From assembly GCA_025934495.1 (NCBI GenBank), contig JAICXY010000004.1, positions 1-64,000 of the forward strand: DNA of 64,000 nucleotides. Reading direction: 5' to 3'. This document shows, one piece after another, positions 9,139-20,629 of this stretch. Below the pieces are notes generated by a model that did not search any database, was not told the origin of the DNA, and was given only the letters and a program-made list of their open reading frames with translations. This DNA comes from Candidatus Nitrosocosmicus sp. (GTDB lineage Archaea > Thermoproteota > Nitrososphaeria > Nitrososphaerales > Nitrososphaeraceae). A program made the position numbers and the translations under genes. How positions within the stretch are numbered: position 1 is the stretch's first letter; each line of letters starts with the position of its first letter.

Positions 9139-9468
9139 TTATATTTCAAATACGTCATTAGATTCGTTTTTAATAAATGGTTTTCTCTCAGGATTAATCT
9201 CGTCTATCGATTTAGCAAGTTGTAAAACTTTTGAATTACCAATCAATTCAAGAATTGAATTAAGCTCGTCAGAGGATTTAATAACAATACCTCTTTTTTT
9301 TGATGGGGATCCATTTGCATTTAATGGATTGATTTCTATAGCAAGTGAGGCAGGTCTCCCACGATATTCAGGTAGTTTAAATAAGAAAATACCAGATATA
9401 TTAGTAGGTTTACGTTCCCAATCTTTACCTTCTTCTAAAAATTGACCTAATCTTTCTCCACTTGACAT
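9139..9468 (-). CDS. Conserved hypothetical protein
   Basis: 109-aa ORF in a compact position between repair genes. Confidence 0.55.
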   Translation of the reverse strand: MSSGERLGQFLEEGKDWERKPTNISGIFLFKLPEYRGRPASLAIEINPLNANGSPSKKRGIVIKSSDELNSILELIGNSKVLQLAKSIDEINPERKPFIKNESNDVFEI

Positions 9469-9600
9469 TATCTATTCATTAATTATTCAATAAATCACCT
9501 TATAATTTTATCTATAATAGTATAACCCATACAAAATAAAAAACAATAAAAATATATTTAAATTAAATATATCTATATTTATATATATACAGATAATAAA

Positions 9601-10971
9601 TCGCTTGAATTAAAATATGATAAAGGAACAATATTAATAGATGGGAATTTAAAGTTACCATATTTAGTTTATGATTATCGGGTAGACAAAAATAGGGCTC
9701 TTGGTAGATTCTATCCAGATATAATCAATTTTTTAAAGATAAATAATTTAAAATATATAGACAATGTTAAGGATTATATAGAATCTCAAACCCAATATAA
9801 TTTTCATGACCCAAATACTCTGAGAGATTATCAAAAAGAAGCAATTGAAAAATGGATCGCACATAATAAAAAAGGTTGTATTGTTTTACCTACAGGGGCA
9901 GGCAAAACAATAATTGCTTTAAAGACAATTACAGAAGTAAATTCATCGACTCTAGTTATAGTGCCAACATTAAATTTAATGGAACAATGGTTTGAATCTA
10001 TAAAAAAGATTTTGGTAGATAAATCTTTGATTGGTATGCTTGGAGGAGGATATAATGATATAAAAAAGATAACAGTAACAACATACGATTCTTCATACTT
10101 AAAATCTTCATTTCTAGGTAATAAATTTAAATTTTTAATTTTTGATGAAGTACATCATTTGGCCTCTGAAAAATATTGTTTGATTGGCGATCATTTTATA
10201 TCCCCTTACAGACTAGGTCTAACCGCCACAATAGAAAGAGAAGATAATAGGCATTCAATTATTTTAAAATTGATAGGAGATATAATTTATAAAAAAGATT
10301 TCTATGATCTAGCTGAGAAAAACTATTTAGCCAATTTTGTAATAAAAAAAAGAATAATAAATATGTTACCTGAAGAGATAATACAATATAATAATAAAAT
10401 GAGCGAATACAAAAAAATATTGAAAGATTCTAAAATATTTTATCCAATAAAATTAGAAAAGTTAATCATTCTTTCAGCTAATAATGACAAATTAAGAAAA
10501 GCATTATTGCTTAGAAACGAGGCCATAGAAATAGCTTTAAACAGCAAGGCCAAAATTTTAGAATTAGAAAAAATATTAAACGAAAAAGATTTGAAAAGAA
10601 AAATAATAATAATTTTCACCATACATACCAAACTAGCATATACCATATCAAATAGATTTTTAATTCCAGTAATAACTCACAAAACAAAAAATGAAGAAAG
10701 AAATGAAATATTAAAAGAATTTAAAAAAGGAAGATACAGAATTATAACTACAACCAAAGTTTTGGACGAAGGTACAGATATTCCAGATGTAAATACAGGA
10801 ATTATACTAAGTGGCACTGGAAGTAAAAGAGAGTTTATCCAAAGATTAGGAAGATTATTAAGACCAAAGAACAACAGGGAGGAGGTAGCTGAGCTCATAG
10901 AAATCATTTCATCAGATACTAGTGAAACATATACAAGTAACAAAAGAAACGTTGGAATTAAAAAAAAGTAA
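9601..10971 (+). CDS. XPB/Rad25-like DNA repair helicase (5' end extended upstream of tracked ORF)
   Basis: Tracked ORF (9961) lacks Walker A. The same frame upstream reads LRDYQKEAIEKWIAHNKKGCIVLPTGAGKTIIALK, joining VPTLNLMEQW...FDEVHHLASEKY...RLGLTATIERED...IQRLGRLLRP. Frame is open from 9562; exact start unknown. Confidence 0.85.
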   Translation, partial: SLELKYDKGTILIDGNLKLPYLVYDYRVDKNRALGRFYPDIINFLKINNLKYIDNVKDYIESQTQYNFHDPNTLRDYQKEAIEKWIAHNKKGCIVLPTGAGKTIIALKTITEVNSSTLVIVPTLNLMEQWFESIKKILVDKSLIGMLGGGYNDIKKITVTTYDSSYLKSSFLGNKFKFLIFDEVHHLASEKYCLIGDHFISPYRLGLTATIEREDNRHSIILKLIGDIIYKKDFYDLAEKNYLANFVIKKRIINMLPEEIIQYNNKMSEYKKILKDSKIFYPIKLEKLIILSANNDKLRKALLLRNEAIEIALNSKAKILELEKILNEKDLKRKIIIIFTIHTKLAYTISNRFLIPVITHKTKNEERNEILKEFKKGRYRIITTTKVLDEGTDIPDVNTGIILSGTGSKREFIQRLGRLLRPKNNREEVAELIEIISSDTSETYTSNKRNVGIKKK

Positions 10972-13515: not shown

Positions 13516-14901
13516 TTGGGTACAAAAAATACAAATATTGCAATAATAGGAGCAGGAATTTTAGGAACAACTTTATCGTACATAATTTCATCTTTATCTA
13601 ATTCAAAAATTATTTTAATTGAACAGGAAAACAATGCTGGACACCATGCTAGTTCTAGAAATACAGGTAAAGTTCATGCACCATTTATTTACAATCCTGA
13701 AAAAAAGAATGGCTTAGCAAAAGCAGCATTGTTTGGGTATGATTTTTGGAATAATTACTGCATGGCTAAAAAAATCAATTTTAAGGAAGATGGAATAATG
13801 GAAGTAGCAACGAATGATAAAGGCACTAAAACAATCTACAAACACCTAGAATGGGGAATGCAGAACGGACTAGAAAAAAAAGATATTCAAATTTTGGAAA
13901 AAAAAGAAGTTGAAAGTATTGAACCTAATATTACATGCCAAAGTGCAATACTATGTAATAGAGATGCATCTGTAGATTATGGGGAAATAACACGATGTTT
14001 GGCTATTGACGCCTTTAAAAATAAAGTAGACCAAATAATGAATTCAAAGGTTATTAAAATCGAAAATGAACTAGCATCCAATAAAGAAATTACTTTAAAA
14101 TATAAACAGTATCCATGCAACAGTTGCAATAGTGATGGAAATGAAAAGGAAATTAAATGCGACTTTTTGATAAATGCGGCTGGAGGAAGCGCATTAGATA
14201 TAGTAAACATGATGAAACTGAATCTTGATTATACAAATCTATATTTTCGAGGGGAATATTGGATTGCACCATTGAAATACAAGTATTTGACCAATCACAG
14301 TATTTATTCAGTTCCTGAATTCCAACAATTTCCATTTCTAGATCCTCATTGGATAATAAGATCTAATGGAAATAGAGAAATAGGACCCAATGCTTGTCCT
14401 GTTTTTTCCCAACATGGATATAATACAAGAATAAACTTGAAAGAATTCTTTCCCAAAATATATGATTTTGCTAAAGGATCTAATATAAAAAAGATAAAGA
14501 ACATGTTCTTTAAAAAAGAAATCACACAATTGGTATTAAAGGAAATGTTAAGTAGTCTCTCTAAGAGACACATGATAAATAGAGTTAAAAAATTTTTACC
14601 CCTATTAAAATCTAAAGATTTTATAAGGAAAGGTACATCAGGTATAAGAACCAATTTGATCGATAAATATGGAAATTTTATTACAAATCCAGTATTTATA
14701 AGCAGTAACAATGCTCTACATATTTTAAATTATAATTCACCAGGAGCTACAGGGGCTTTTTCAATTGGTTTTGTGCTGGCCTTTAAACTTATAGAAAAAG
14801 GAGTAGTAAAAAAAGATAAAGAAATACAAACGCATTTTTTTAAAGAAAAGTTAATTATGGACTGCATAAAAGAAGTAAAAATATCTTTGATTAAAATTTA
14901 A
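13516..14901 (+). CDS. FAD-dependent oxidoreductase (L-2-hydroxyglutarate oxidase / malate:quinone oxidoreductase-like)
   Basis: Dinucleotide-binding NIAIIGAGILGTTLSYI, SSRNTGKVHAPFIYNPEKK, C-terminal NYNSPGATGAFSIGF. TTG start. Confidence 0.75.
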   Translation: MGTKNTNIAIIGAGILGTTLSYIISSLSNSKIILIEQENNAGHHASSRNTGKVHAPFIYNPEKKNGLAKAALFGYDFWNNYCMAKKINFKEDGIMEVATNDKGTKTIYKHLEWGMQNGLEKKDIQILEKKEVESIEPNITCQSAILCNRDASVDYGEITRCLAIDAFKNKVDQIMNSKVIKIENELASNKEITLKYKQYPCNSCNSDGNEKEIKCDFLINAAGGSALDIVNMMKLNLDYTNLYFRGEYWIAPLKYKYLTNHSIYSVPEFQQFPFLDPHWIIRSNGNREIGPNACPVFSQHGYNTRINLKEFFPKIYDFAKGSNIKKIKNMFFKKEITQLVLKEMLSSLSKRHMINRVKKFLPLLKSKDFIRKGTSGIRTNLIDKYGNFITNPVFISSNNALHILNYNSPGATGAFSIGFVLAFKLIEKGVVKKDKEIQTHFFKEKLIMDCIKEVKISLIKI

Positions 14902-19257: not shown

Positions 19258-19366
19258 ATAACATTAAATATTTTTTCGCTTTATATAACAAAGGGAAAAG
19301 TTCTACATAACTCACTTCACTAAAACTAAATAAAGAAATAGAAATCTTAAGATAATGGTGGAGTAA

Positions 19367-20629
19367 AGAATTTCAGAAAAGTCTATTAAAATTAATAATA
19401 ATATAAAAAATGGAAATATAAAAGATATAGGAATAGATGGATCGAAGGAATCAGGTATAAATAAAATCAAGGATGCAAATATTGTAATTTACGGATTAAG
19501 TACTGAAGGATATGAAATAGCAAAACGAATATTACAAAATCACGCCAGAGTTGTAATAATTGATGAGAATTCGAGATTAGGGATTTTGTTGACCAGTAAA
19601 ATAGTAAAAGAATATCCTAACATAGCATTTTTAATGGAGGAAGAATTATTATTAAACTTAGAGCCATTTGATAAAGTCATAAGTAATGCACCAATCATTT
19701 TTTTTGCCCCCAGAATTAGAAAAACAAACTATGATGTAAAAAATGACATTATCCCAAAATTTAAGGAAATTATAGCTAATTTAAAAAAAAACACATCAAT
19801 AGTATTTAATATTCCTTTAGGAATTGGTGGTAATAATGAAATTATTTCATTGATAGAACATTTATCCGGTTTTACCGTAGGAACAGAAATTCATTATTAT
19901 TATAATCCCATTGATAAAATTAAAACAAATGAAATAATTGTAGGATCATATCAGCAAATAAATGATCCTTATTTTAATAGTATTATAAATTTAATATACA
20001 AGTACAATGTACAAAAGATAAAGACAGTAAGTATTTCATCTTCAGAGTTATTATATACAATAAATATCGTAAAGAGATATTCTAATCTCACATCAATCAA
20101 TGAAATCGCAAAGCTCAATAGGCTAAAGGAGATCAGAACAGAAATATCTCGAAACAATATTGAGCCAATCTATTTTGATGACATAGTAAACGGTTTATTT
20201 GATTTAAGAATTTTGAGTTTATCATTAACAAATTCCTCAGCTTTGGGATACATTGTAAATGGTACAATAAGGTCTATCGAAGGTTTTGTAAAAAGTCTTG
20301 TTGAAGAAATAAGAAGCCAATTAAAAGAGAGAGAGATAAAAGCGAGTAGAACAAAAGTTACCATATTATGGACTATCGATAATAATGAAATAAGAGGAGA
20401 TAAAACAATAATGCGAGATTTATTGAGATTAAAACTAATTGATTATATCGACGAAGTAGAAATACAAGATATTGAAAATTTTTTACCAAATATTGTAACA
20501 AGCATAATAATCACGTGCTCAAGTGAAGATCATAAAAAAATAATATCAAGAATAGCTGAGAGCCATCACCGCAATTATAAAATAATAATAGTTCCAGCTA
20601 ACACCTTTTTTAATACAATAGAAATATAA
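19367..20629 (+). CDS. Nucleotide-sugar dehydrogenase-like NAD-binding protein (5' end problematic)
   Basis: Tracked ORF starts at TTG 19586. Upstream same frame encodes Rossmann-like ANIVIYGLSTEGYEIAKRILQNHARVVIIDENSRLG. In-frame ATG at 19355 is followed by TAA at 19364. Confidence 0.6.
   Translation, partial: RISEKSIKINNNIKNGNIKDIGIDGSKESGINKIKDANIVIYGLSTEGYEIAKRILQNHARVVIIDENSRLGILLTSKIVKEYPNIAFLMEEELLLNLEPFDKVISNAPIIFFAPRIRKTNYDVKNDIIPKFKEIIANLKKNTSIVFNIPLGIGGNNEIISLIEHLSGFTVGTEIHYYYNPIDKIKTNEIIVGSYQQINDPYFNSIINLIYKYNVQKIKTVSISSSELLYTINIVKRYSNLTSINEIAKLNRLKEIRTEISRNNIEPIYFDDIVNGLFDLRILSLSLTNSSALGYIVNGTIRSIEGFVKSLVEEIRSQLKEREIKASRTKVTILWTIDNNEIRGDKTIMRDLLRLKLIDYIDEVEIQDIENFLPNIVTSIIITCSSEDHKKIISRIAESHHRNYKIIIVPANTFFNTIEI

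Follow-up and report, generated by a model that had tools for sequence, protein, structure and literature searches.

Features of the XPB locus

The window, i.e., the whole stretch of 64,000 nucleotides of Candidatus Nitrosocosmicus DNA analyzed in this study, carries a gene for the DNA repair helicase XPB between a small divergent gene and the gene of the XPB partner Bax1. Ca. Nitrosocosmicus is a genus of soil ammonia-oxidizing archaea. The features around XPB are as follows.

9139 to 9468, minus strand: divergent small gene (ORF of 109 amino acids, ATG start) that borders the XPB upstream region
9553 to 9564, plus strand: putative archaeal TATA element (TATATTTAAATT), from sequence comparison and spacing calibration
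9562 to 9603, plus strand: open in-frame stretch 5' of the XPB core, without NUG (ATT 9562 and 9577, ATC 9571, and ATA 9583 in frame)
9604 to 10971, plus strand: XPB helicase CDS with the proposed start CTT 9604 (MELKYDKGTILIDG...) and the stop TAA at 10969 to 10971, from Pfam, PDB, and alignment with the ATT of L007 to L009
11062 to 13050, plus strand: Bax1 nuclease (DUF790), ATG start, downstream partner gene of XPB (Pfam DUF790, E value of 2.6e-78; NCBIfam endonuclease Bax1, E value of 2e-56)

The divergent gene had no match in Pfam or NCBIfam. Following a TAA stop at 9559 to 9561, the XPB frame stays open on the plus strand from 9562 to 10971 (469 amino acids in the ORF listing). Its translation contains two helicase domains, with the motifs PTGAGKT and DEVHH, and Pfam identified XPB_DRD, ResIII, Helicase_C, and ERCC3_RAD25_C. 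XPB_DRD (PF18458) was found above the cutoff at residues 17 to 69 (9610 to 9768; E value of 1.6e-12), i.e., 5' of any canonical start. The XPB of A. fulgidus (PDB 2fwr/6p66) matched the protein over its full length (E value of 1.9e-113), and homology to the nearest solved proteins, the archaeal XPBs 2fwr, 6p66, and 5tnu, begins at the same place, ELKYDKGT. The adjacent Bax1 gene likewise fits an archaeal XPB. The score against the NCBIfam equivalog NF045503 (DNA repair helicase XPB) was 192 bits versus a cutoff of 610, and the protein is thus not a member of that equivalog.

Absence of a canonical start and translation of the N terminus

The first in-frame canonical start of XPB is GTG 9961, and the Walker A motif PTGAGKT (9889 to 9909) lies 5' of it. 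This agrees with the original prediction, which had described a frame open from 9562 with no canonical NUG until a point past Walker A; only one in-frame CTG, at 9820, precedes GTG 9961. On the plus strand from 9400 to 9616, a sequence scan found no ATG or GTG in any of the frames; the three TTG triplets in this interval are at 9442, 9462, and 9605, of which 9605 is out of the XPB frame. Based on local codon use, the absence of ATG, GTG, and TTG has a p value of ~0.011 over 133 XPB coding codons and of ~0.6 in the 15 codons that precede the conserved core. The case thus draws its strength from comparison, in that the same lack recurs across the genus.

Between the YDKGT of the core and Walker A, nine species pairs showed differences at codon positions 1, 2, and 3 in a ratio of 104:74:253 and 174 synonymous versus 164 other codon changes, and the sole indel in this interval was 6 nt long. 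This pattern of change between species shows that the N terminus of XPB is translated. Internal canonical codons differ in position from species to species, and together with the coding selection on the N terminus this means that every species must initiate XPB ahead of Walker A.

XPB orthologs inside and outside the genus

We compared 15 species of Ca. Nitrosocosmicus, in 14 of which XPB was readable. Of the 14 genes, 10 (L001, L007 to L009, and L012 to L017) lack ATG, GTG, and TTG before the conserved core; several counts in this study were read by eye off printed codons, and the species are not independent, so the counts are not probabilities. In L015, a TTG stands directly before FDKGT, one codon before the core, and we assigned it to the core in this count. 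Three single-contig genomes (G004, G006, and G013) are among those without a canonical XPB start. In the other four genes, one aligned site just ahead of the core carries a canonical codon, TTG in L010 and L011 and GTG in L031 and L037; at this site, L012 of the single-contig G013 has GTC and L016 has ATA. In the clade of the window, the codon one position after this site is ATT in L007 to L009 and CTT (9604) in the window. At the aligned site itself, L013, L014, L015, and L017 have GCT, GCC, GCT, and ACT, respectively, with ATT, ATC, ACG, or ATC nearby, and these four are the exceptions that leave no single codon column NUN across all species of the genus. Outside the genus, all 17 XPB orthologs that were read have a canonical codon at or close to the aligned start place, mostly the weak starts GTG and TTG and otherwise ATG.

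Two copies probably reflect assembly noise, namely, that of G012 (L046/L036), with many stops, and that of G011 (L031), with a frameshift.

Promoter, leader, and probable start codon of XPB

The motif TTTAAATA or a near form occurs at the place of the XPB TATA element in most of the genus. Among 821 sampled genus genes with ATG starts, the distance from TTTAAATA/TTTATATA to the ATG peaks at 29 (27 to 31) nt, a leaderless spacing, and this spacing applied to XPB places the mRNA 5' end roughly 15 to 35 nt ahead of the conserved core. We saw no Shine-Dalgarno sequence before XPB; leaderless archaeal mRNAs do not require one.

Judged by its alignment with ATT in three sister species, CTT 9604 is the leading candidate for the XPB start in the window, with a likelihood slightly below even. 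A considerably less likely variant, still non-NUG, is that XPB is leaderless and would start at the mRNA 5' end on ATA or ATT (in the window, on ATA 9583) and not on the later CTT, ATT, or GTC. The TATA-to-ATG peak speaks for it, as does an in-frame ATA or ATT near the predicted 5' end in about 9 of 14 orthologs (hand count), but L008, L012, L013, and L031 have neither codon at that point, and indels there (2 nt between L010 and L011 and 1 nt between L012 and L037) do not keep the frame, which favors the later codon in that clade. The remaining likelihood falls to other codons within 9562 to 9606. Thus, the initiation at AUA or AUU first proposed for this gene appears right in kind, given the aligned ATT of the sister species and the ATA and ATT starts of other genus genes, but not for the best-aligned codon of the window, with ATA 9583 as the leaderless alternative.

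Other conserved genes without a canonical start

The start-less condition noticed at XPB proved broader than originally thought, extending to further conserved genes in the genus. We applied a hexamer-based scan to the window and to sampled stretches of G013, G006, and G004 (~1.4 Mb in total, from four genomes of the genus), and of the 333 ortholog groups covered, about 6 lacked a canonical start: XPB, HemC, a SUI1 paralog, a cyclase, a Rossmann-like protein, and a DAO oxidoreductase. The ortholog scan itself flagged seven groups, of which the first four named were counted, and the last two were added from separate comparisons. The three other flagged groups have an ATG 17 to 29 codons in, probably after conserved leaders, and were left out of the count. 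The features concerned are as follows.

13516 to 14901, plus strand: DAO-type FAD oxidoreductase, TTG start in the window (Pfam DAO, E value of 2.2e-32)
19358 to 19364, plus strand: Shine-Dalgarno-like GGTGGAG before the Rossmann-like gene, seen in the sequence, with the G-rich leader kept in the genus
19370 to 20629, plus strand: Rossmann-like conserved protein, proposed start ATT 19370; the first canonical codon is a TTG 73 codons in, after the IVIYGLSTEGYEIAK strand
G000:C41:9035-9316, minus strand (L247 to L260): second SUI1-domain (aIF1-like) gene, ATA at the proposed start

In HemC, GGTGA (GGTGG in L229) is followed after 6 nt by NTT in 14 of 14 genus members (L217 to L230), with ATT in six species, GTT in three, and TTT in five. 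This codon lies six residues before the ATRAS motif, in the register of the outgroup starts, which are canonical near there. The proposed HemC start (G000:C175:44675-45610, minus strand; L217 to L230) overlaps the upstream stop as NTTAA. The class III cyclase shows GGTGA, 7 nt, and then ATT or ATC in 11 of 15 species and a TTG start in L288 and L289; the N terminus of L290 (G010) has a 2-nt deletion relative to L289. Thus, HemC and the cyclase have a ribosome binding site at the right distance, and the Rossmann-like gene does so less clearly. GGTGA is rare ahead of canonical starts in the genus, and a census of codons based on Shine-Dalgarno sequences is too small as a stand-alone test.

The SUI1 paralog has ATA at the proposed start in all 13 copies with the codon read; the next codon is TCN, CCA, or TTC, and the one after it is GAR. 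A stop lies one to two codons ahead of the ATA in L253, L255, and L259, and L247, L256, and L258 have a longer open frame with a canonical codon farther upstream. The start of the Rossmann-like gene was readable in 14 genus members, and 13 of them (all but L080) have ATT after the G-rich leader; some species also have ATG or TTG farther inside the frame. The DAO oxidoreductase has GTG or TTG in the clade of the window (L097 to L100) and ATA or ATT at or near the aligned place in L101 to L109.

The same scan yielded no start-less case in a sample of G025 (49% GC) and no ATT or ATA case in a sample of G033 (34% GC, AT rich like Nitrosocosmicus); in the latter sample, CTG was seen at aIF6 and, probably, at an HflX-like gene. 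The aIF6 genes of L316 (G033) and L330 (G048) have no ATG, GTG, or TTG at the N terminus and probably start with CTG; TTG is the usual aIF6 codon in the rest of the family, and relatives have TTG or ATG at this place.

Alternative explanations

A sequencing or assembly error, or an upstream indel, could conceal a normal XPB start, as the original prediction had also proposed. Such errors occur, as the G012 copy (L046), which is error ridden with many stops, and the frameshifted G011 copy attest, but independent assemblies of other species, including the single-contig genomes G004, G006, and G013, are equally without a start, and an indel in the window would find ATG or GTG in no plus-strand frame from 9400 to 9616. 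We therefore regard this explanation as extremely improbable and reject a rescue of XPB by frameshift or indel. Equally improbable are a short protein made from GTG 9961 or another internal start and a decaying gene: annotation software would pick such a start, and the G011 copy is frameshifted, but a start at 9961 leaves out Walker A, the internal canonical codons vary between species, and the third-position excess and frame-keeping indels upstream indicate selection on the N terminus.

Scarcely more probable is a normal start supplied by an upstream exon, stop codon readthrough, or a frameshift. Most species have an in-frame ATG or TTG three codons before a conserved TAA or TAG in the Rossmann-like gene, and the NTTAA overlap of HemC resembles a +1 shift site. 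For XPB, however, all frames from the divergent gene to the core are free of ATG and GTG, and a short leader is all that the TATA element allows; for the SUI1 paralog, no upstream start is common to the copies. An intron-split XPB start was rejected, as no exon bearing ATG or GTG lies between the divergent gene and the core. We also rejected a conserved out-of-frame ATG (in AATGC) present in L010 to L012, L014, L015, L031, and L037, which is missing there in L001, L008, L013, L016, and L017 and is soon followed by a stop.

Proposed mechanism

These comparisons suggest that Ca. Nitrosocosmicus initiates certain proteins on codons like AUU, AUA, and CUU, and lineage-specific initiation on non-NUG codons is in our view very probably the best explanation. 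With similar confidence, we take the gene of the window to be an intact archaeal XPB translated from a non-NUG codon, as one case of this habit of the genus. To our knowledge, AUU, AUA, and CUU are almost never used as starts elsewhere. Several points stand against the non-NUG reading, among them the TTG beside the core of L015, the lack of a Shine-Dalgarno sequence and of a common NUN column in XPB, and the upstream canonical codons of three SUI1 paralog copies. In addition, any short stretch of an AT-rich genome will contain near-cognate codons by chance, and CUU and UUU each differ from AUG at two positions, which strains the near-cognate rule.

The weak XPB start used by relatives outside the genus was probably replaced in Nitrosocosmicus by codons such as ATT, CTT, GTC, or ATA, and likewise in several other genes. 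Such codons would most likely be read by the normal initiator tRNA at low efficiency, which would keep XPB low, and a fidelity control of the aIF1 type, by aIF1 or its paralog, might set the level. An unusual initiator tRNA was rejected, since the anticodon is normal: the initiator-type anticodon stem-loop GGGCTCATAACCC is intact and single copy in all 15 genus genomes and is also single copy in G015. Exact GGGCTCATAACCC was not found in nine searched genomes from other families of the order, and a tRNA scan of a 1.2-Mb sample detected no Met tRNA. Loss of aIF1 was rejected as well, since SUI1-domain proteins occur in every genus genome searched and the main aIF1 of L270 starts with ATG. Archaeal aIF1 selects against noncanonical starts (PMC8211752, PMC7531240), and when all 64 codons were compared experimentally as starts, ATT reached ~0.3% of the top efficiency (PMC10666635). 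By analogy with IF3/infC, start choice may be relaxed genus wide (~2% of conserved genes, with AUU, AUA, AUC, GUU, UUU, CUU, and GUC) under an autoregulated AUA-start SUI1 protein that sets the yield; we consider this extended model possible but rather doubtful.

Comparison with known systems

Reconstruction of 61,358 ancestral AUG starts found one switch to AUU, and gains of non-NUG starts are very rare (PMC5622118). Single non-NUG starts are already known: bacterial infC (IF3) starts with ATT in E. coli and ATC in Streptomyces, and sigR of Streptomyces starts with GTC, is repressed by IF3, and was proven by mutation and N-terminal sequencing (PMC5472188). A genus-conserved archaeal set of such starts was not found in the literature searched, of which coverage was partial, and its novelty is not proven. 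If true, a cultured archaeal genus with conserved non-NUG starts (XPB, HemC, and a SUI1 factor) makes archaeal start codon discrimination directly testable, and standard annotation probably shortens or loses such proteins, so that XPB would be deprived of its half with Walker A.

Like infC, the genus genes are conserved and have non-NUG starts, and the SUI1 paralog with ATA is a direct parallel; in contrast to infC, they are archaeal and comprise several unrelated genes, and autoregulation is here only hypothetical. The XPB of G013 (L012) resembles sigR in having GTC, at the aligned start site, and in being a kind of start that annotation misses, although the sigR start is proven and that of XPB is predicted. 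HemC, with ATTAA, GTTAA, or TTTAA shared with the upstream gene, resembles the ATTAA-type gene overlaps that have been attributed to annotation error or rare noncanonical starts (PMC10666635), but its pattern is conserved over a genus. The archaeal XPB-Bax1 systems (A. fulgidus 2fwr and S. tokodaii 5tnu) agree with the window in their domains, the N-terminal DRD, and the neighboring Bax1 gene, and the sole difference is the start codon.
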